Shown piece after piece: positions 36,133 to 46,394 of a DNA stretch of 64,000 bases. This DNA is from Flavobacterium sangjuense. Its GTDB lineage: Bacteria; Bacteroidota; Bacteroidia; Flavobacteriales; Flavobacteriaceae. The stretch is from the NCBI RefSeq assembly GCF_004797125.1, contig NZ_CP038810.1, positions 2,356,001 through 2,420,000 of the forward strand, read 5' to 3'. Both the position numbers and the translations under genes were made by a program. Every line of letters begins with the position of its first letter. Positions within the stretch are counted from its first letter, which is position 1. The notes under the pieces were generated by a model. The model was not told the DNA's origin, ran no database searches, and saw only the letters and a list, made by a program, of their open reading frames with translations.

Positions 36133-36681
36133 ATGATTGAAAACCAATTCCTTTTTGAAAAACTTTATCATGAGTATAAAACGCTCGTGTTCAATGTGGC
36201 GTTGAATTATCTGCAAAACGTTGAAGACGCTGAGGAAATCACGCAAGATGTTTTTGTGAAAGTTTATAATTCTTTGGAAAACTTCAATCAAAAATCGTCG
36301 CATAAAACCTGGATTTATCGAATTACGATTAATCAATGTTTGGATTATATCAAGCAAAAGAACAGTCAGAAGCGCTTTTTTATTTTTGGAAAGAAAAGCC
36401 AGAACGAACAGGAATATCTCAACACAGCAACCTTTGAGCATCCTGGAATTTTAATGGAAAATCAGGAAGATGCCGCAATTCTTTTTTCATTCATCAACAC
36501 CTTAACCGAAAATCAAAAGACCGCTTTTTTGCTTTCAAAATTAGATGGATTGAGTAATCCTGAGATTTCTGAAATTATGCAATTGAGCATTTCCTCTGTG
36601 GAATCACTTGTATTCAGGGCAAAAGTCGTGCTTCAGGATAAATTATCTGAGAAATTCAACAACTACCGCAAGAAAAAATAA
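36133..36681 (+). CDS. ECF-type RNA polymerase sigma factor (cluster regulator)
   Basis: A 182-residue ECF sigma factor. Region 2 has LYHEYKTLVFNVALNYLQ, EDAEEITQDVFVKVYN and HKTWIYRITINQCLDYI; region 4 has LTENQKTAFLLSKLDGLSNPEISEIM and SISSVESLVFRAK. It is followed by a short anti-sigma-like gene and by a co-directional cluster of MbnP, diheme peroxidase and YHYH genes, which it probably controls. The inducing signal is unknown. No iron-siderophore receptor or FecR gene lies nearby. Confidence 0.9.
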   Translation: MIENQFLFEKLYHEYKTLVFNVALNYLQNVEDAEEITQDVFVKVYNSLENFNQKSSHKTWIYRITINQCLDYIKQKNSQKRFFIFGKKSQNEQEYLNTATFEHPGILMENQEDAAILFSFINTLTENQKTAFLLSKLDGLSNPEISEIMQLSISSVESLVFRAKVVLQDKLSEKFNNYRKKK

Positions 36682-36724
36682 TAACCTTCGTCAAAGTAAA
36701 TACTGAACTTAATTCAGCACAAGC

Positions 36725-36994
36725 ATGGAAAGAAATAATTGGATAGAAAACATTTTGAACAGCACTAACGGTCTTACGCCTGTAACGCCAAGTGACGATT
36801 TGTTTTCCAAAATTCAGCAAAGAATTCAGCTGGAAAGCAAAGTGTCTTCAAAAACCGTTTGGCTTGTTGCCGCTTCAATCGCGGTTTTAGTAATGCTTAA
36901 CTTCTCAGTTATCGCATTTAAATCCAAAGAAAAAACAAGTTCAACCACAGCCTATTTAGAAATGACTGTCAATAAAAGTAACCAGTTATATTAA
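36725..36994 (+). CDS. Short single-pass anti-sigma-like protein
   Basis: An 89-residue protein with a cytoplasmic N-terminus (about 1-42, WIENILNSTNGLTPVTPSDD) and one membrane helix (about 45-65, VWLVAASIAVLVMLNFSVIAF). The outer part has only about 24 residues. It follows an ECF sigma gene by 43 nt, the usual place for an anti-sigma factor. Neither a zinc-binding motif nor an outer sensor domain is visible, so any signal would need a partner, perhaps the Spy/CpxP-like protein encoded five bases further on. Confidence 0.65.
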   Translation: MERNNWIENILNSTNGLTPVTPSDDLFSKIQQRIQLESKVSSKTVWLVAASIAVLVMLNFSVIAFKSKEKTSSTTAYLEMTVNKSNQLY

Positions 36995-36999
36995 TAACA

Positions 37000-37476
37000 A
37001 TGGAAAAAACAAAACTATTAACGATTGCCGTTATCGGATTATTGCTGCTCAATTTGGGCACATTAGGCTTTTTGATTCTAAAGGGAAAAGACCACAGACT
37101 TCCACATGAAGGCGGCAGACCGGAACCAAAAGAAGTAATTATAAATAAATTGCATTTTGATGCACAACAACAAGAGAATTATGCCGAGTTAATAAAATGG
37201 CATCGCGGAGAAATTACAAGGCTTGATGATAGCATTCGAAGTGCTAAAAACGAATTGTATACACAATTAAATCAAGCTGAAGTCAATGTAAAAACAAAAG
37301 ACAGTCTGATTCTGCTTTTGAATTCATATCAAAAACAAGTAGAAGAAACACATTTCAAACATTTTGAAGATATCAAAAAGCTGTGTCACCAAGACCAAAT
37401 GGAGAACTTCAAAGAGTTGACGCAAGAATTATCCAGAATATTTGCTCCAAAACCACGCAGACCAAGACATGACTAG
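37000..37476 (+). CDS. Membrane-anchored Spy/CpxP-like protein
   Basis: A 158-residue protein: one N-terminal anchor (about 7-26) and a helical periplasmic domain. LHFDAQQQENYAELIKWHRGEI and the later LCHQDQMENFKEL resemble the LTxxQ repeats of Spy/CpxP and of metal-sensing partners such as CnrX/ZraP. In related operons these proteins bind metal or misfolded proteins and inform the anti-sigma factor. The His/Glu-rich stretch RLPHEGGRPEPKE follows the anchor. It starts 5 nt after the anti-sigma gene and overlaps the MbnP gene by 8 nt. Confidence 0.75.
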   Translation: MEKTKLLTIAVIGLLLLNLGTLGFLILKGKDHRLPHEGGRPEPKEVIINKLHFDAQQQENYAELIKWHRGEITRLDDSIRSAKNELYTQLNQAEVNVKTKDSLILLLNSYQKQVEETHFKHFEDIKKLCHQDQMENFKELTQELSRIFAPKPRRPRHD

Positions 37477-38167
37477 AAAGGGAATTCATATTATTTCCTT
37501 TTTATTTTTTTGTTTTTCGCTTTTAGCACAGAACAAAAGCGATTCGTTGGCAGTTAGTTTTCATTTGGAATTTAATAAACTTCCACTCGAATTAAACAAA
37601 AAATATGTTTCGGTAAGCAAAGACACTTTGATTATTGAAACCTTTAGATGTTATATTTCCAATATTCAGATTCAGTATGAAGACAAGTCTGTCTTCACTG
37701 AAAAAAACAGCTATCACCTACTCGATGCTGAACATCCAGATTCGTTTCAAATTCCAATTACCAAAAAGAGTGACAAACTAATTTCCAAAATCACTTTCGA
37801 TATTGGCATCGACAGTTTAACCAATACTTCTGGCGCAATGGCTGGTGATTTAGATCCAATAAAGGGAATGTATTGGGCTTGGCAAAGTGGTTATATTAAC
37901 ACAAAAATTGAAGGTAAAAGCTCGAGCTGTAAGACTAGAAACAATGAGTTTCAGTTTCATATTGGCGGCTATCTGCAACCCTATTATGCCATACGCAAGA
38001 TGAAATTTGATTGTAACAAAAAAGCTGATAATGACATTTATATTGGTATCGATTTGAATCCGTTTTTCTCTAATTTGGAACTAAAAGAAACCAACAGCGT
38101 AATGATTCCGGGAAAGGATGCGATGAAATTGGCAAATTACAGCACCAAAATGTTTTATTCGCAATGA
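37469..38167 (+). CDS. MbnP-family protein (copper-linked)
   Basis: A 232-residue exported protein: signal MTRKGIHIISFLFFCFSLLAQ, then the MbnP pattern VSFHLEFNKLPLE, FRCYISNIQIQY and DIGIDSLTNTSGAMAGDLDP followed by GMYWAWQSGYINTKIEG. In methanotrophs, MbnP pairs with the diheme enzyme MbnH, which oxidises a Trp of MbnP to kynurenine to create a Cu(I) site. Trp residues in YWAWQSG are candidates here. It overlaps the next gene (a diheme peroxidase) by 4 nt. The ATG at 37469 is preferred over 37442 because it opens the signal peptide. Confidence 0.85.
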   Translation: MTRKGIHIISFLFFCFSLLAQNKSDSLAVSFHLEFNKLPLELNKKYVSVSKDTLIIETFRCYISNIQIQYEDKSVFTEKNSYHLLDAEHPDSFQIPITKKSDKLISKITFDIGIDSLTNTSGAMAGDLDPIKGMYWAWQSGYINTKIEGKSSSCKTRNNEFQFHIGGYLQPYYAIRKMKFDCNKKADNDIYIGIDLNPFFSNLELKETNSVMIPGKDAMKLANYSTKMFYSQ

Positions 38168-39183
38168 AATTCAATTGGAAATATATCTTGGGAACTTGGA
38201 TTGCTTTAGTTGGTTTTGGATTTTCAAATCAAACTACTACTCCACTATATCTTGATGTGCCAAAAGGCTGGCCAAAACCAGTTTATGATTTTGATAGAAA
38301 CCCATTAACCGAAGAAGGTTTTCAACTTGGCAGGTATTTGTTTTACGATCCAATTTTATCAAAAGACAGTACCATTTCGTGTGCTAGCTGTCATTTGCAG
38401 CAAACCGGTTTTACACATGTTGATCATAAATTGAGTCATGGAATTGAAGGAAAGATTGGCACTCGCAATGCAATGATTTTAATTAACCTGGCCTGGAACA
38501 AAGACTTTATGTGGGATGGCGGTGTAAATAATTTGGAAATGCAACCCATAAATCCGATAACTAATCCGGCAGAAATGGGTGAAACATTGGAACATGTAAT
38601 AGCCAAATTGCAGGCAAGCGAAAAATACAGAACGTTATTTTCTAAAGCTTTTGGTGATGAAAAAGTCAACAGTCAAAGGCTTTTAAAGGCGTTAGCACAA
38701 TTTACCGTAATGCTAAAATCATCAAATGCAAAATATGATAAAGTCATGCGCAAAGAAGAAAGTTTCACAACGCAAGAGCAACACGGTTATGATTTGTTTA
38801 AAACGAATTGTGCATCCTGTCATAAAGAGCCGCTTTTTAGCGATACAAAATTTGAAAGAAACGGATTGGCTGTTGATGAAACTTTGAATGATTCTGGCCG
38901 AATGAAAATCACCGGAAAACAAGAAGATTATCTGCGTTTTAAAATTCCGTCGCTGAGAAACTCTTATTATACCTATCCATACATGCATGATGGCAGGTTT
39001 AAAACCCTAATGGAAGTTATAAAGCATTACAATTCTCTTGGAAACGATAAAAATCTACCTGCAGCATTGGTTAAACCAATGAATCTTTCAGATAATGACA
39101 GGGTAGATTTAATTGCATTTTTATATACACTAACGGATAGAGAATTTCTATTTAACAAACGATTTTCATTTCCAAGAGAATAA
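38164..39183 (+). CDS. Diheme cytochrome c peroxidase family protein (MbnH/MauG-like)
   Basis: A 339-residue protein with N-terminal export sequence (about 7-21) and two c-type heme motifs: CASCH at 73-77 and 216-220. PYMHDGRFKTLMEVIKHYN near the C-terminus is the usual end of the family. It starts inside the stop of the mbnP-like gene (ATGA overlap). By analogy to MbnH-MbnP it may oxidise a tryptophan of that protein; it could also be a plain hydrogen peroxide reductase. Acts in the periplasm. Confidence 0.88.
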   Translation: MKFNWKYILGTWIALVGFGFSNQTTTPLYLDVPKGWPKPVYDFDRNPLTEEGFQLGRYLFYDPILSKDSTISCASCHLQQTGFTHVDHKLSHGIEGKIGTRNAMILINLAWNKDFMWDGGVNNLEMQPINPITNPAEMGETLEHVIAKLQASEKYRTLFSKAFGDEKVNSQRLLKALAQFTVMLKSSNAKYDKVMRKEESFTTQEQHGYDLFKTNCASCHKEPLFSDTKFERNGLAVDETLNDSGRMKITGKQEDYLRFKIPSLRNSYYTYPYMHDGRFKTLMEVIKHYNSLGNDKNLPAALVKPMNLSDNDRVDLIAFLYTLTDREFLFNKRFSFPRE

Positions 39184-39294
39184 TTTTAAACCAATACGCA
39201 AGAAATAAAAACATCTTTCGTCTAACGTTCTATAACCAAACCAGACCACATGAAATCGAAGATTCACGAATACCAAAAAAACAATTTTAAAATC

Positions 39295-40641
39295 ATGAGT
39301 AATAAATCAATCTTATTACTGCTGCTTACCACTATCGCGCATTCGCAAACCAATCCCATAATTACACAATGGCTGCGCAATACTACAGGAATTACAGGCC
39401 GTCATTATGTATCGGGTAATCCAACACCAATTACTGATGCCGTTGCTGCCAATGTACAAACGGTTCAATATTCAACCAATTGGGTTTATGTGACTACCAA
39501 TGGAATTCCGGCTTATATTACCGGACCTTTTTTAGATGGAAATCCATCTTTGGCAACTTCACAAAATGGAGCCATTTTCAAAATGCCTTTAAATCCAACT
39601 CAGAATACCGGAACGCCAACAGCAACAAACGGAGGAAATATTGGACTGTTTAAAAATGGTGTGGCTTTGTTTGATTATCGTGATGGTGCTTCGTGGAGAA
39701 ACGCTTCAAGCCAGATGTGTGGCGGACCAACTGGTATGTGCACCGGTGATGCTGTTTGGAACAGAGATGCCATTCCGGCTGAACGCGGCGGATTTGATTG
39801 TGCAAAGGCACATCCTGCAATGGGAAATTATCATCATCACCAAAACCCGAGCGCTTTTAATTTAGATTTGGCAGTAATATCAACGGTTTGTGACACGTAT
39901 CCTTCGGATGGATTATACGTTATCAATTCAGCAGAACATTCTCCGTTGATTGGTTTTGCTTATGATGGTTTTCCAATTTATGGTGCTTATGGTTATGCCA
40001 ATGCTGATGGAACCGGAGGCATTGTCCGAATAAAATCAAGTTACCAATTGCGTAATATCACCACAAGAACCCATTATGCTGATGGAACCAATGTTACCGA
40101 TGGTCCTGCGGTAAGTACGACCTATCCTTTGGGTTATTTCAGAGAAGATTATGAATATGTAGCACATCCTTCTGATGCTAGTTATTTAGATGTTCACAAC
40201 GGACGTTTTTGCATAACGCCTGAATATCCTTTGGGAATTTATTGCTATTTCGCTACGGTTGATGCCAATCATAATTCGGCTTATCCTTATGTAGTTGGCC
40301 CAACATTCTACGGTAATAAAACTGCGGTTAAAGTGACTTCGATTTCTGAAAGTACAACACAATATACTTTGGCCAATGCCGATTTTAATTTGTCAAAACT
40401 GAATATCAAAATCTATCCGAATCCGGCTCAGGATTTTATTGCTATTCAATCGGATATGATAGAAGATAATTTGGACGTAACACTTATCGATGAACTTGGC
40501 AAAGTGATACAATCGAATAAAATCCTTCAGGGAAGCACACTTTCCATTATCGATTTAAGTACCGTTTACAATGGAATATATTTTGTAAAAGTTGCCAGTG
40601 TGAAAGACAATAAAACGTTTAAAATAATCGTAAACAAATAA
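39295..40641 (+). CDS. YHYH-domain protein with T9SS sorting domain
   Basis: A 448-residue secreted protein: signal MSNKSILLLLLTTIAHSQ (I prefer the ATG at 39295), a YHYH domain with the histidine cluster GNYHHHQNP (about 176-184), SPLIGFAYDGFPIYGAYGY and YDLD-type motifs, and a type A T9SS C-terminal domain (about 360-448; IKIYPNPAQDF and NGIYFVKVASVKD). The YHYH domain is thought to bind metal. It lies between two diheme peroxidase genes with only 3 nt to the second, so a joint role is likely. Confidence 0.85.
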   Translation: MSNKSILLLLLTTIAHSQTNPIITQWLRNTTGITGRHYVSGNPTPITDAVAANVQTVQYSTNWVYVTTNGIPAYITGPFLDGNPSLATSQNGAIFKMPLNPTQNTGTPTATNGGNIGLFKNGVALFDYRDGASWRNASSQMCGGPTGMCTGDAVWNRDAIPAERGGFDCAKAHPAMGNYHHHQNPSAFNLDLAVISTVCDTYPSDGLYVINSAEHSPLIGFAYDGFPIYGAYGYANADGTGGIVRIKSSYQLRNITTRTHYADGTNVTDGPAVSTTYPLGYFREDYEYVAHPSDASYLDVHNGRFCITPEYPLGIYCYFATVDANHNSAYPYVVGPTFYGNKTAVKVTSISESTTQYTLANADFNLSKLNIKIYPNPAQDFIAIQSDMIEDNLDVTLIDELGKVIQSNKILQGSTLSIIDLSTVYNGIYFVKVASVKDNKTFKIIVNK

Positions 40642-40644
40642 GCC

Positions 40645-41823
40645 ATGAAACTACGTTATTTATCATTTCTTCTTATACCAACATTTTGGTCATGTAGCAG
40701 TTCTTCCGGTAGTGATTACGTTGATCCGTATGCTAATGTAAAAGCAACATTTGGAACGAATATCGATTTAGATAATCTGGCAAATTATGCTAATCAAACC
40801 ATTCCACCTTACATCACAAAAGACAATACCGCCGGAAATCCAATCACGGATAAAGGAGCAACTTTAGGAAGAGTTTTATTTTATGACAAAAATTTGTCTT
40901 CCAATAATACCATTTCGTGTGCCAGTTGCCACCAACAAGCAAATGCTTTTAGCGATACCAATGTAGCCAGCAATGGTGTAAACGGAACCACAGGCAGGCA
41001 TGCCATGCGTTTAATTAACTCCCGATTTGCTGTTGAAAATAAGTTTTTTTGGGATGAGCGTGCGGCAACATTAGAGTTTCAAACAACACAGCCTATCCAA
41101 AATCATATCGAAATGGGATTCAGTGGTACCAGTGGCGATGAAGGTTTTAGTGGTTTGATAACCAAGCTTAATCAAATTGGCTACTACAAAGAACTGTTCA
41201 AGTTTGTCTATGGTTCGGAAGAAATTACCGAAAGTAAAGTTCAGTTGGCATTGGCACAATTCGTTAGAAGCATTCAGTCCTTCGATAGTAAATACGATAC
41301 CGGAAGAGCCCAAGTTGCCAATGACGGACAAGCATTTCCCAATTTTACAGCGCAGGAAAATCAGGGAAAACAATTATTCTTAGCGCCTCCTGTTTTTGAT
41401 GCTACGGGTAACCGAACAGGTGGTGGCGTTGGCTGTGCCGGTTGTCATGCTGCGCCCGAGTTTGATATTGCTCCAAATTCAGGAAATAATGGAATCATCG
41501 GTAATTTAGGCACAACAGGCATTGACATTACCAATACCCGAGCTCCTTCCCTACGCGACCTTGTTAAATTGGACGGAACATTGAATGGACCGTTGATGCA
41601 TACAGGTGTAATTACAAGTTTACAGGCTGCCATTGGTCATTACGGAACTATAAATATTGCTCCGGGAAATACGAATCTTGATCCAAAGCTGAGACCTAAT
41701 GGATTTGGGCAACGGTTAAATTTTAATGCGCAGGAAATTAATTCTTTAATAGCCTTTTTGAGAACCCTTTCCGGTTCTAATGTCTATGTTGATACAAAAT
41801 GGTCAAATCCATTTCCGAATTAA
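40645..41823 (+). CDS. Diheme cytochrome c peroxidase family lipoprotein
   Basis: A 392-residue lipoprotein (lipobox FWSC, Cys17; then SSSSGSD) with heme motifs CASCH at 92-96 and CAGCH at 264-268. The region between includes FFWDERAATLEFQTTQPIQN and EMGFSG, as in the cytochrome c peroxidase/MauG family. It differs from the first peroxidase of the cluster in length and anchoring. It starts 3 nt after the YHYH gene and is probably its functional partner. A 22-bp tandem repeat follows. Confidence 0.88.
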   Translation: MKLRYLSFLLIPTFWSCSSSSGSDYVDPYANVKATFGTNIDLDNLANYANQTIPPYITKDNTAGNPITDKGATLGRVLFYDKNLSSNNTISCASCHQQANAFSDTNVASNGVNGTTGRHAMRLINSRFAVENKFFWDERAATLEFQTTQPIQNHIEMGFSGTSGDEGFSGLITKLNQIGYYKELFKFVYGSEEITESKVQLALAQFVRSIQSFDSKYDTGRAQVANDGQAFPNFTAQENQGKQLFLAPPVFDATGNRTGGGVGCAGCHAAPEFDIAPNSGNNGIIGNLGTTGIDITNTRAPSLRDLVKLDGTLNGPLMHTGVITSLQAAIGHYGTINIAPGNTNLDPKLRPNGFGQRLNFNAQEINSLIAFLRTLSGSNVYVDTKWSNPFPN

Positions 41824-41979: not shown

Positions 41980-44073
41980 TTATTCTTTAATAAACTTACT
42001 GCTCGCCGTTCCTTTATCGCTTATAATCTTGATAAAATAGCTTCCGGTTTTCAATCCTGAAACATCTATCGTTTCATTTGGATTAGTAATAACCTGAACC
42101 AATTGCCCAAGTGTATTATAGATATTTACCGAACTTATTATCACATTTTGTCTTGTTGTGATTGTCAACACATTTTTGGCAGGAACCGGAGACAAAGTAA
42201 ATACGCTGCTGAACTCAAAATCCTGTGTTCCTAAAGCGGCAATTGTCGTTGTAGCCGTATTGGTAACAATTGGAAAATTATAATCAAAATAAATACTTGA
42301 GCTATTACTAAAAGTATTTCCAACCACCAATGTTGACTTGGTTTTAATTTTAAACACCACATAACCATCGTTGTTGGCATCATCAAATGGCAGATTGATA
42401 TTTTCAAAGATAAACTCCACTCTATTTGTATTTGTAATCTTTGTTATAAAAGAATGGCTGCCATTTAAAGGCACTAAAGTGGCAATATCAAACTTAGCAG
42501 TATCAATAATATCTTTCACAACAACATTTTCAGCAGCATAATTTCCGGTGTTTTCAAAGCGTATCATATAATGTACATACTCACCAACCTTTTCGACACC
42601 AACTATATTTCCTTCCAAGCAGTTTTTATCATTTGGATCATATGAACCCACAACAACTTGCTGTAAGCGGTGTGAATTGTCCGTTTGGGTTTCGTCTCCG
42701 GCCAATGGAAATATTGTAGATTCAAATTTTATTACGCTGCCAATATTAAGCGGAAGCGACTCCGATGGCGTGTTCATATTGAGCGTGACTTCTATCTCAC
42801 GTGTTTCAAAAGGAAAGAGATTAACATAACTCCATGTCAGCAAACTAAAGTTTATACTTTCCGGTGCCGGTGAAGCCGAAACAAAATCCATATAATCATC
42901 ATCAAAACCAAATGTCAACGTTCCCGACATCATTTGATTTCCTTTGTTTTTGTATACAATTTTATATCTTGCATCAAATCCTGCTCTGGCTCGGGTTAAT
43001 GGATAAATCCATGTTTCTACATCATTGTGAATTCCATTTGCAGAAATACAAAAGTCTTGTGTATATGGACTACTTGCACTAGGGAAAGTCACAGCTGTCG
43101 ATGCTGGAGAAACTGTAAAATAAGTTGGATTTTCTAAAACAGGCGTAATGGCATGAGTTCCCGCTGAAACAGGTATTGAATAATTGCCTGATGTATTTGC
43201 AAACATACTCCCGGTAGTCACTCCTGAAAAGTTAAGTTTTAGGTATGGATAAGGGATGTCCAACAAATCACAGCCATTAGTATTATAATCAAATTTACCG
43301 TTACCTTGGATTGTATAATAATTTCCTCCGGGTGTAAATGAGCAATACGTTCCAATGTTACAATTGGTCATTGAAAATACATCTAAAAGATTTTGGATAT
43401 TATTTAACTGACCTTCATCAGCACATATATATCTTAAATTTGGATTACTACCGAGACCGACGTTTGCTTCATTTTTCCCGTTTTTTATATTCATAAACAC
43501 GAGTTGATTACTGGTACAGTAAACATTATTCAAATTTATGCAAGAACTAAAATCTACAGTGGTTAATTGATTTGTATCAAACCAAGCTGTCGTAAGATTT
43601 ACTAATCCATTTACATTTACAGAAGTAAGTTGATTTTGCCATGCTGTTATACCTGTTACACTAGTTAGTCCTGTAAAATCAAGAGAGGTTATTTGATTTG
43701 ACTGACATAAAAAAACTTGCAGATTTGTAAAGGGAGCGAGATTAATAGCGGTAATGGTATTATATGCAACATTTAATCTTACCAGATTTGTAAAATTTTC
43801 TATTCCGGTAACATTTGAAATTAAAACTGAAGCTGCTGCATTTTGGTTATTAACATCTAACCATGATATTTGTTGAGCTTCACTTATTTCAATTTCTCCG
43901 TTATTATTAGCATCAATTTTTATATAATTCCCAGCTAAATCTTTACCAATTTGATTACTCGTACTCGCCGCCAACAACTTCGCCTTAAAATTAGCATCCG
44001 GGAAATTAATAATCTGAGCCTGACATGTCATACCAACTAAAAATAAAACCAAAAATGTACTGAGTTTTTTCAT
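41980..44073 (-). CDS. T9SS surface protein: EF-hand-like loop, leucine-rich repeats (paralogue 2)
   Basis: A 697-residue secreted protein. After the signal (MKKLSTFLVLFLVGMTCQA) a calcium-loop-like motif DANNNGEIEISEA (54-66) precedes 6-7 leucine-rich repeats (about 85-220; LTSLDFTGLTSVT type). CSFTPGGNYYTIQG then opens a CARDB/DUF11-like part (about 250-600), and FTLSPVPAKN...SSKFIKE forms the type A T9SS signal. It is a paralogue of the gene just upstream; the last 49 residues are identical between them. Probably a cell-surface adhesin or surface-layer protein. Confidence 0.85.
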   Translation of the reverse strand: MKKLSTFLVLFLVGMTCQAQIINFPDANFKAKLLAASTSNQIGKDLAGNYIKIDANNNGEIEISEAQQISWLDVNNQNAAASVLISNVTGIENFTNLVRLNVAYNTITAINLAPFTNLQVFLCQSNQITSLDFTGLTSVTGITAWQNQLTSVNVNGLVNLTTAWFDTNQLTTVDFSSCINLNNVYCTSNQLVFMNIKNGKNEANVGLGSNPNLRYICADEGQLNNIQNLLDVFSMTNCNIGTYCSFTPGGNYYTIQGNGKFDYNTNGCDLLDIPYPYLKLNFSGVTTGSMFANTSGNYSIPVSAGTHAITPVLENPTYFTVSPASTAVTFPSASSPYTQDFCISANGIHNDVETWIYPLTRARAGFDARYKIVYKNKGNQMMSGTLTFGFDDDYMDFVSASPAPESINFSLLTWSYVNLFPFETREIEVTLNMNTPSESLPLNIGSVIKFESTIFPLAGDETQTDNSHRLQQVVVGSYDPNDKNCLEGNIVGVEKVGEYVHYMIRFENTGNYAAENVVVKDIIDTAKFDIATLVPLNGSHSFITKITNTNRVEFIFENINLPFDDANNDGYVVFKIKTKSTLVVGNTFSNSSSIYFDYNFPIVTNTATTTIAALGTQDFEFSSVFTLSPVPAKNVLTITTRQNVIISSVNIYNTLGQLVQVITNPNETIDVSGLKTGSYFIKIISDKGTASSKFIKE

Positions 44074-44080
44074 AATTAAT

Positions 44081-46303
44081 TTATTCTTTAATAAACTTAC
44101 TGCTTGCAGTTCCCTTATCGCTAATAATCTTAATAAAGTAACTTCCTGTTTTCAATCCTGAAACATCAATCGTTTCGTTTGGATTAGTAATAACCTGAAC
44201 CAATTGCCCAAGTGTGTTATAGATATTTACCGAAGAAATCATGATGTCTTGCTTAGTTGTAATAGTTAGGCTATTCTTCGCAGGAACCGGAGACAAAGTA
44301 AATATATTACTGAACTCAAAGTCCTGTGTTCCTAAAGCGGTAATTGTCGTTGTAGCCGTATTGGTAACAATTGGGAAATTATAATCAAAATAAATATCTG
44401 CTGTATTGCTAAAAGTATCTCCTACAACTAATGTTGGTTTTGTTTTGATTTTAAAGGTAACATAACCATCATTGTTAGCATCATCAAAAGGAAGATTGAT
44501 GTTTTCAAATATAAATTCTACCTGATTCGTATTCATAATTTTGGTTGTATAATTATGGCTTCCGTTTAATGGGATTAAAGTAGAAATGTCAAACTTAGTT
44601 GTGTCAATGATATCTTTTACAACAATATTTTCAGCAGCGTACGTTCCTGTATTTTCAAAACGGATTACGTAATGAACATATTCCCCAATCATTTCAGGCC
44701 CAATGATATCACCTTCAACACATGTTTTGTCATTTGGATCGAAGGAACCTACAACTGTTTGTCTTAGGCCACTATAATTGTCCATTGTATTTTCATCTAC
44801 TGTTGATGGATTTATACTTGCGGTAAAACCTAATTTGTCACCAATATTTACTGCAGGAGTTTCCAAAGGAGAATTGACATTGAGTGTAGTTATTATTTCC
44901 CGTATTTCATATGGCAGTGAATTAGCATAATCCCAACTTAACACCCCGAAATTTTGAGTTGTTGGTGCTGGTGTAGCCGAAACAAAATCAATTCTATCAT
45001 CCTCAAATGTAAAGCTGATACTTCCAGTTGAAGGAACATTTCCTTTATTCTTATATATAATTTTATATCTCGCATCAAATCCTGGTCTTGCAGGTGTCAA
45101 TGGAAAAATCATTATTTCTACATCCTGATGAGTCCCAATTGGCGTAATACAAAAGTTTTGTGTCAAAGGTGATACTTGGTCTGGAAATGTTACTTCTATA
45201 TTGGTTGGCGAAATACTGTAATATTCCGGATTTTCTAATACAGGTGTTATGGTATACGTTCCCGAAATAAAATTTAAAGTAAACTGTCCACTGGAATTCG
45301 CAATTATATTTCCGGAAGCTGTTCCATTTGAGAAAATAAAATTAAGATTAGGATAATTCAAATCATCATTGTCACAACCGTTATTATCATAGTCAACATG
45401 AGTATTACCCTGAACTGTATAAAAGTTTCCTCCCGGAGTAAAACTGCAATAGGTATTTACCTGGCAAAACTCAATTCCCTGTAATTGAAGATATGCCTGA
45501 ACTACAGCAACTAGTGGCTCATCAACGCATATGTACCTTAAATTAGGGCAATTTTCAAATTCTATTTCGTCATTGCTTCCATTTTTAGCATTCACATAAA
45601 CAAGTTGGGTATTATTAGCAAAATCCAATTGGTTTAGGTGAATCAATTGACTAAAATCCAATTCAGTAAACGGATTGTCGTCAACCCTAATATTTGTAAT
45701 ATTAACAGAACCATTTGTGTTTAAGGAAGTGAGCAGGTTGTCTGAGCAATCCAGATCTAAAAAACTTGGTAAATTACTGATATCAAGTGACGTTAACTGA
45801 TTAGAGGAGCATACAATGCCTTCAAGATGGATTAGTCCATTAACGTTCAATGTTGTCAGTTGATTAAATCTGCAATCAATTCCTTTTAGGTTGGGAAAAA
45901 TTGTAAGATCCAATGTGGTCAATTGGTTATCGTAGCATCCTAATCCTTTAAGATTTTGTGAAGCATTCAGGCTTAAAGATGTAAGATGATTTTCACCGCA
46001 ATATAAATCTGTTAAATTACTGAAACTGCTTATCCCTTCTAAATTTGAAATATTGCTGGCATTGATGTTAAGGAACTTTATAGCCAATGCTTCCGATAAT
46101 TGAATTTCTCCATCGCTATTGGTATCAATAGAAACAAAAGTATTCACAGCAGGATAACTTATATATTCTTCTGCTGATGCGATTGGATTCGTTGGGCTTG
46201 CCTGCAATAACTTAGCTTTAAAGTTTGCATCAGGAATGCTTACTATCTGAGCAGTACTAATTAAACCAATAAAAAAAGCAGTGAAAGCGTAAAGTTTCTT
46301 CAT
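44081..46303 (-). CDS. T9SS surface protein: EF-hand-like loop, leucine-rich repeats (paralogue 1)
   Basis: A 740-residue secreted protein. I place the start at 46303 (MKKLYAFTAFFIGLISTAQ); the upstream in-frame ATG at 46387 would put 28 residues ahead of the signal peptide. The order is as in its neighbour: DTNSDGEIQLSEA, leucine-rich repeats (about 85-235), CSFTPGGNFYTVQG, beta-sandwich part and a type A T9SS signal. It has more repeat units than its paralogue. Seven nucleotides separate the two genes, so they are one operon formed by tandem duplication. Confidence 0.85.
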   Translation of the reverse strand: MKKLYAFTAFFIGLISTAQIVSIPDANFKAKLLQASPTNPIASAEEYISYPAVNTFVSIDTNSDGEIQLSEALAIKFLNINASNISNLEGISSFSNLTDLYCGENHLTSLSLNASQNLKGLGCYDNQLTTLDLTIFPNLKGIDCRFNQLTTLNVNGLIHLEGIVCSSNQLTSLDISNLPSFLDLDCSDNLLTSLNTNGSVNITNIRVDDNPFTELDFSQLIHLNQLDFANNTQLVYVNAKNGSNDEIEFENCPNLRYICVDEPLVAVVQAYLQLQGIEFCQVNTYCSFTPGGNFYTVQGNTHVDYDNNGCDNDDLNYPNLNFIFSNGTASGNIIANSSGQFTLNFISGTYTITPVLENPEYYSISPTNIEVTFPDQVSPLTQNFCITPIGTHQDVEIMIFPLTPARPGFDARYKIIYKNKGNVPSTGSISFTFEDDRIDFVSATPAPTTQNFGVLSWDYANSLPYEIREIITTLNVNSPLETPAVNIGDKLGFTASINPSTVDENTMDNYSGLRQTVVGSFDPNDKTCVEGDIIGPEMIGEYVHYVIRFENTGTYAAENIVVKDIIDTTKFDISTLIPLNGSHNYTTKIMNTNQVEFIFENINLPFDDANNDGYVTFKIKTKPTLVVGDTFSNTADIYFDYNFPIVTNTATTTITALGTQDFEFSNIFTLSPVPAKNSLTITTKQDIMISSVNIYNTLGQLVQVITNPNETIDVSGLKTGSYFIKIISDKGTASSKFIKE

Positions 46304-46342
46304 AAGAATGATTTGATGTCCAAATATATATAAAATATTGAA

Positions 46343-46370
46343 TAAAAAAAGCCTCACAAAATGTGAGGCC
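46343..46370 (-). terminator. Intrinsic terminator of sucD
   Basis: GCCTCACA / TGTGAGGC stem with a T-tract on the minus strand, 25 nt after the sucD stop codon. It separates sucD from the surface-protein genes in the same direction. Confidence 0.88.
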
Positions 46371-46394
46371 TGAATTATATTTTCCAATAATGGG

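Follow-up and report, generated by a model that had tools for sequence, protein, structure and literature searches.

Positions 2,356,001 to 2,420,000 of contig NZ_CP038810.1 (assembly GCF_004797125.1) of Flavobacterium sangjuense, a stretch of 64,000 nucleotides referred to here as the window, carry seven genes on one strand (36133-41823 of the window) that encode, in order, an extracytoplasmic function (ECF) sigma factor, an anti-sigma-like protein, a Spy-like protein, a member of the MbnP family, a diheme enzyme (D1), a YHYH-domain protein and a second diheme enzyme (D2) (Table 1). A preliminary description of this DNA had given the same order on a single strand, and profile scans against Pfam and NCBIfam confirmed it, with the ECF factor, MbnP, both diheme enzymes and the YHYH protein with its type IX secretion system (T9SS) tail all scoring above their Pfam cut-offs. 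The anti-sigma-like and Spy-like proteins reached no family cut-off in these scans, and the names given to them earlier are retained because of where the genes lie, the topology of the proteins and a weak match by profile. Overlaps of 3-8 nt had been described for several of the genes; two pairs do overlap (Spy-like/MbnP by 8 nt, MbnP/D1 by 4 nt), whereas the remaining neighbours are separated by gaps of 43, 5, 66 (111 with the YHYH start at ATG 39295) and 3 nt, in gene order. The genome of the host is a single contig of 3.13 Mb, and its YHYH, MbnP and CCP_MauG genes, numbering one, one and two, respectively, are confined to the cluster. A methanobactin operon was ruled out, since a genome-wide search found no member of the MbnB family (PF05114), in line with the earlier remark that methanobactin genes are absent.

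Table 1. Genes of the cluster and residues of interest, in coordinates of the window.
Feature	Position	Strand	Basis or conservation
ECF sigma factor, 182 aa	36133..36681	+	Sigma70_r2 66.5 bits, r4_2 51.1 bits, each above cut-off
Short anti-sigma-like protein, 89 aa, single hydrophobic stretch near residue 47	36725..36994	+	Position, hydropathy
Spy/CnrX-like protein, N-terminal membrane anchor, probable metal sensor	37000..37476	+	Hydropathy, weak profile matches
MbnP, 232 aa, start ATG 37469	37469..38167	+	
MbnP WxW motif (W136, W138), first Trp the expected kynurenine site	37874..37882	+	Invariant in 44/44 aligned
MbnP H164, expected copper ligand	37958..37960	+	44/44 aligned; 20/20 other MbnPs
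MbnP M212, expected copper ligand	38102..38104	+	41/44 aligned
D1, MauG/MbnH-type diheme enzyme, 339 aa	38164..39183	+	CCP_MauG 189.7 bits
D1 Tyr289, place of the axial Met in classical peroxidases	39028..39030	+	Tyr in 62/62 aligned; by alignment only
YHYH-domain protein ending in a T9SS sorting tail; ATG 39295 as alternative start	39250..40641	+	PF14240, Por_Secre_tail
YHYH H188, Y194, H195, H197 (counted from the start at 39250), a candidate metal site with D183 and D239 close by	39811..39840	+	
D2, lipoprotein-like MauG-type diheme enzyme, 392 aa, putative lineage-specific addition	40645..41823	+	CCP_MauG 141.9 bits

The proposal that MbnP and D1 form an MbnH-MbnP-like pair behind an ECF gene is supported by family, fold, ligand residues and the tyrosine at the axial position. 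MbnP of the window matches PF20243 with 156.8 bits (cut-off 27) and the NCBIfam equivalog TIGR04052 with 37.3 bits, under the curated cut-off of 140; a fold search recovered the MbnP fold, although a PDB sequence search using the MbnP profile returned no MbnP. The copper ligand set of this family, which we take to be WxW plus a histidine and a methionine, has its counterparts in the residues of Table 1, and at the position of M212 the 20 other MbnPs carry Met in 15 cases, His in four and Leu in one. D1 matches the MbnH structure 6e1c at 4.2e-43, and the MbnH equivalog TIGR04039 is its best NCBIfam match, at 230.2 bits and so below the curated cut-off of 362.85. Two CxxCH haem sites are invariant in all 62 aligned D1 sequences, and Tyr289 aligns with the Tyr of 6e1c and with the Met of 3o5c and 1iqc. 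By homology, D1 would oxidise the first tryptophan of the WxW motif, W136, to kynurenine, thereby completing a periplasmic Cu(I) site together with H164 and M212.

The first three genes appear to resemble the CnrYXH system in layout and not in family membership, with weak sequence support: an ECF gene, a short single-pass anti-sigma gene and a gene for a membrane-anchored periplasmic sensor are adjacent, as judged from gene order and hydropathy. The hydropathy of the Spy-like protein peaks at 2.49 at residue 9, and its profile matches are a VirG-like/Spy structure (7e-4), Spy (0.012) and NccX (0.09, over nearly the full length). Twenty MbnP loci without YHYH were hand-picked from the MbnP table of 345 genomes drawn evenly from the phylum of the host; an MbnH-type gene adjoins MbnP in all 20, and ECF, anti-sigma or Spy-like genes of the type found here occur in none of them. 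An SCO gene lies a few kb away in two of them (L131 and L135).

The YHYH protein scores 192.4 bits against PF14240 (cut-off 25) and 51.3 bits against the T9SS sorting domain Por_Secre_tail, PF18962 (cut-off 27; residues 388-461). Comparison of 36 YHYH proteins (19 of 50 aligned full-length and 17 of 35 other, mostly short, sequences) revealed D183, H188, Y194, H195, H197, D239, Y244, D314, Y331 and Y333 to be invariant. The conserved histidines and aspartates of these cellular proteins agree with the three-His/Asp site predicted for phage YHYH domains (PMC7824862). When Trp, Tyr, His and Met residues of YHYH proteins beside D1 were compared with those of 10 YHYH proteins without D1, no Trp, His or Met proved specific to the former; four Tyr differ between these groups, partly through gaps. 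In a structure search the protein matched cyanophage YHYH proteins, one of them at 2e-15. The model of its core is moderate (pLDDT 79) and the PDB matches fall mainly on the T9SS tail, so that neither a fold nor the absence of a fold is claimed for the core. Within the searchable literature, to which most subscription papers do not belong, none of the papers listed for YHYH was on the function of a cellular YHYH, and none of those listed for YHYH with copper was on the domain, judging by title; the YHYH protein or PF14240 was met there in a diatom transcript list.

The genomic setting of YHYH was compared in loci L003-L082, the best 80 of 575 YHYH relatives and a set for that reason biased to near relatives (L006 and L048 are from one species); the closest named relative by YHYH sequence is Flavobacterium terrisoli, at 91%. 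The preliminary description had proposed a survey for YHYH genes with a directly adjacent diheme gene and for a consistent neighbourhood in other genomes. The neighbourhood proved to be conserved: the order ECF, anti-sigma, Spy-like, MbnP, D1, YHYH recurs among the 80 loci, and of the 67 loci that offer 1 kb or more of upstream DNA, 50 have D1 on the same strand no further than 300 bp ahead of YHYH. In nine of these 67 it lies 0.4-4.2 kb upstream, and eight have none (L014, L068 and L070 were scored as lacking D1 with only 1.3-2.2 kb of upstream DNA). D2 stands directly downstream of YHYH in 10 of the 75 loci that have 1 kb or more on that side. In 14 of the 80 loci YHYH has a multicopper oxidase gene on its own strand no more than 5 kb away, and in 13 an AhpC/TSA-type redoxin gene; Pfam matches and T9SS tails were checked on examples. 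L014, L017, L035 and L070 have the oxidase and no D1, L014 and L070 with short upstream sequence, and L017 retains the ECF, anti-sigma and Spy-like genes. Beside the YHYH/multicopper-oxidase cluster of L053 (6855-9510), and also in L017 and L070, a T9SS-tailed sulfatase is followed by a gene resembling formylglycine-generating enzyme (FGE), an enzyme that requires copper.

Among the 345 genomes of the phylum sample, YHYH was detected in 39, MbnP in 89 and CCP_MauG in 170. Sixty YHYH places, including that of the window, were compiled from 55 stretches (five with two places each), after removal of 11 rows that represented second pieces of listed proteins; places scoring above 150 bits in Pfam were considered full-length (n = 25), the remaining 35 being lower-scoring and mostly short proteins. 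Partner genes on the same strand were counted up to a distance of 5 kb using profiles derived from the loci of this study (that for SCO came from the locus of a short-form YHYH), and 20 arbitrary windows of YHYH-bearing genomes, counted on either strand, served as control. A separate tally of neighbouring oxidases and sulfatases omitted L108 (full-length) and three of L123-L126, which the study's own YHYH profile did not recognise; the phylum count includes them. Near the full-length places, CCP was counted at 10, MbnP at nine and multicopper oxidase at one, with at least one of these at 11, and near the lower-scoring places SCO1/SenC at 21, multicopper oxidase at two and MbnP with CCP at one, with at least one at 24. 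The control gave one window in 20 with CCP, and MbnP, oxidase and SCO in none. SCO1/SenC was verified by Pfam in all seven neighbours scanned, and in L111, L177 and L182 (YHYH of the last by Pfam only) the order is ECF, anti-sigma, Spy-like, YHYH, SCO1. Compared with D2, the commoner partner of YHYH is the upstream MbnH gene, or in its stead a multicopper oxidase or SCO1.

Some individual loci add detail. SCO1/SenC lies close to a short YHYH gene on the same strand in L111-L122, L125, L174, L176, L177, L179, L181 and L182; in several loci a small protein is encoded between the two, with a MORN_2 repeat in L117, the one scanned. L103 (2896-11463) has one YHYH gene flanked by two MbnP-diheme pairs within about 8.5 kb, and L091 (7146-10953) has two YHYH genes in tandem, with a sulfatase on one side and a diheme/MbnP pair on the other.

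Taken together, these data are best accounted for by a metal-sensing operon for extracytoplasmic copper handling, a reading to which we assign a probability of roughly 0.6. Briefly, a CnrYXH-like trans-envelope switch, formed by the ECF factor, the anti-sigma and the Spy/CnrX-like sensor, would activate the operon once its sensor encounters a metal, probably copper, and D1 and MbnP would provide the Cu(I) site described above. The YHYH protein would leave the cell by the T9SS and act outside, through its conserved three-His/Asp site, as a copper-binding or copper-dependent protein; a role in copper handling is suggested by the repeated presence of MbnP/MbnH, multicopper oxidase or SCO1 genes in its neighbourhood. 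D2 would be a lineage-specific extra enzyme of the MauG type. As to the trigger, the copper repression of CorA and CorB, a studied pair of similar kind (PMC3912023), leans towards copper scarcity, whereas copper excess would fit better with a sensor like CnrX and with multicopper oxidases. A broader proposal is offered only tentatively: YHYH (PF14240) may be a family of extracytoplasmic copper proteins with a three-His/Asp site that, in Bacteroidota, is a common client of MbnH/MbnP, multicopper oxidase plus redoxin, and SCO1/SenC modules under a shared CnrYXH-like copper-sensing switch.

Several observations weigh against this copper operon. The sensor matches Metal_resist (PF13801) at 0.018 with 15.6 bits, under the cut-off of 29.2 (a Spy-like relative in L168 reaches 26.4 bits, likewise below it), and a search of the host genome gave no match to that family. 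None of the profiled copper partners is present near 14 of the 25 full-length YHYH places, including all six of family f24, and the places are not independent of each other, since linkage is inherited. Sulfatase genes lie near four of the 25 full-length and four of the 35 lower-scoring places (8/60), and arylsulfotransferase genes near two and one of them, respectively (3/60). Finally, the site of phage YHYH domains, which commonly occur as fusions with tail or lectin domains, was read as that of a Zn-binding, metal-dependent hydrolase (PMC7824862).

The last two points underlie the strongest alternative, namely that YHYH is a secreted hydrolase dependent on a metal such as Zn, with sulfated polymers or other polymers outside the cell as its substrates, and that the copper genes share its regulator and not its function. 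The 80 related loci also contain a sulfatase in five, FGE in three and an arylsulfotransferase in two cases. We consider this alternative unlikely, given that copper-linked genes stand near 35 of the 60 YHYH places, more than sulfatases or arylsulfotransferases do, that a sulfatase also occurs in one of the 20 control windows (the one with CCP), and that no hydrolase fold was matched by the YHYH core, in a search that barely tested it.

The preliminary description had envisaged two modules, with D1 acting on MbnP and D2 on YHYH so that either substrate gains a metal site. D2 directly follows YHYH in the window as in the 10 related loci mentioned, and L168, from another genus, joins a D2-type gene, an EF-hand gene and YHYH, in that order, behind the same ECF, anti-sigma and Spy-like genes. 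D2 scores 150.6 bits against TIGR04039 (same cut-off of 362.85), and a Tyr of the MauG type at the axial place and two CxxCH sites are present in all 11 aligned D2 sequences. On the other side, 65 of the 75 loci lack D2 after YHYH. A search of 119 further genomes from the family found D2 relatives in 12, at 13 places; of the 12 places examined (one with internal stops was left out), 11 have no YHYH beside them, including L166, which ends at a contig end. The WxW motif is absent from all 50 YHYH proteins. A dedication of D2 to YHYH is accordingly weakly supported, and the two-module scheme appears improbable; the preliminary interpretation is partly supported, in that its MbnH-MbnP part holds and a D2 dedicated to YHYH is not a general feature. 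In L159-L162, from four other genera, a D2-type gene lies by a long dehydrogenase-E1-like open reading frame (ORF) and a methyltransferase-like ORF (by eye), without MbnP or YHYH.

An ordinary peroxide and envelope-stress operon, with the diheme proteins as cytochrome c peroxidases and the Spy-like protein as a chaperone, is very improbable: two cytochrome c peroxidase structures do score slightly above MbnH for D1 (156.7 and 152.9 against 151.3 bits), but an ordinary peroxidase was rejected on account of the Tyr in place of the axial Met of the classical bacterial enzymes in 62/62 D1 and 11/11 D2, the MbnH family tops the NCBIfam matches of D1, an MbnP gene adjoins it, and the Spy-like protein retains its N-terminal anchor.

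Consensus promoters and terminators in the region did not exceed shuffle level. Upstream of 48 ECF genes, A/T-rich words were more frequent than in one shuffled control; some Flavobacterium loci have a TTTAAACCTTT-like stretch there. Beyond the cluster, on the minus strand of the window (41980-46387), two long, similar, secreted LRR-like proteins, probably paralogues as judged by eye, are encoded facing it.

The best studied MbnP/MbnH pairs are those of methanotrophs. The pair described here belongs to an operon, probably a metal-sensing one, that is conserved in flavobacteria and elsewhere in their phylum. The YHYH domain is common to bacteria, phages, giant viruses and diatoms, and no tested function for it was found in the searchable literature, relative to which a broad link of this family with copper genes would seem to be new. 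The neighbourhoods described give the domain a concrete, testable connection to copper, and if YHYH is indeed a family of copper proteins, the phage and algal domains would be copper proteins too.

Among known systems, the Methylosinus MbnP-MbnH pair (PDB 7L6G and 6E1C; TIGR04052/TIGR04039) has in common with the cluster the adjacent MbnP and MauG-type diheme genes, the fold, WxW with His and Met, and Tyr at the axial place; in contrast, the flavobacterial pair stays below the NCBIfam equivalog cut-offs, lies in a genome without MbnB and has regulators and YHYH attached. Such pairs occur far beyond methanobactin producers (PMC3621798). In the CorA/CorB and MopE/SACCP systems of methanotrophs, a surface-associated Cu(I) protein, the site of which includes a Trp-derived kynurenine, is co-transcribed with a diheme peroxidase-like partner and is copper-repressed (PMC3912023); a putative copper-protein gene is likewise paired with a diheme gene in the present cluster. 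The regulators recall CnrYXH of Cupriavidus, in which periplasmic CnrX is believed to release the sigma factor upon binding metal (PMC4598750), through the ECF sigma factor, short membrane anti-sigma, periplasmic sensor and weak NccX profile match, but this sensor is below the Metal_resist cut-off and the operon holds copper genes and not those of Ni/Co efflux. Phage and giant-virus YHYH proteins share the domain and its published three-His/Asp site (PMC7824862), whereas the protein described here is cellular, exported by the T9SS and encoded in an operon with copper genes.

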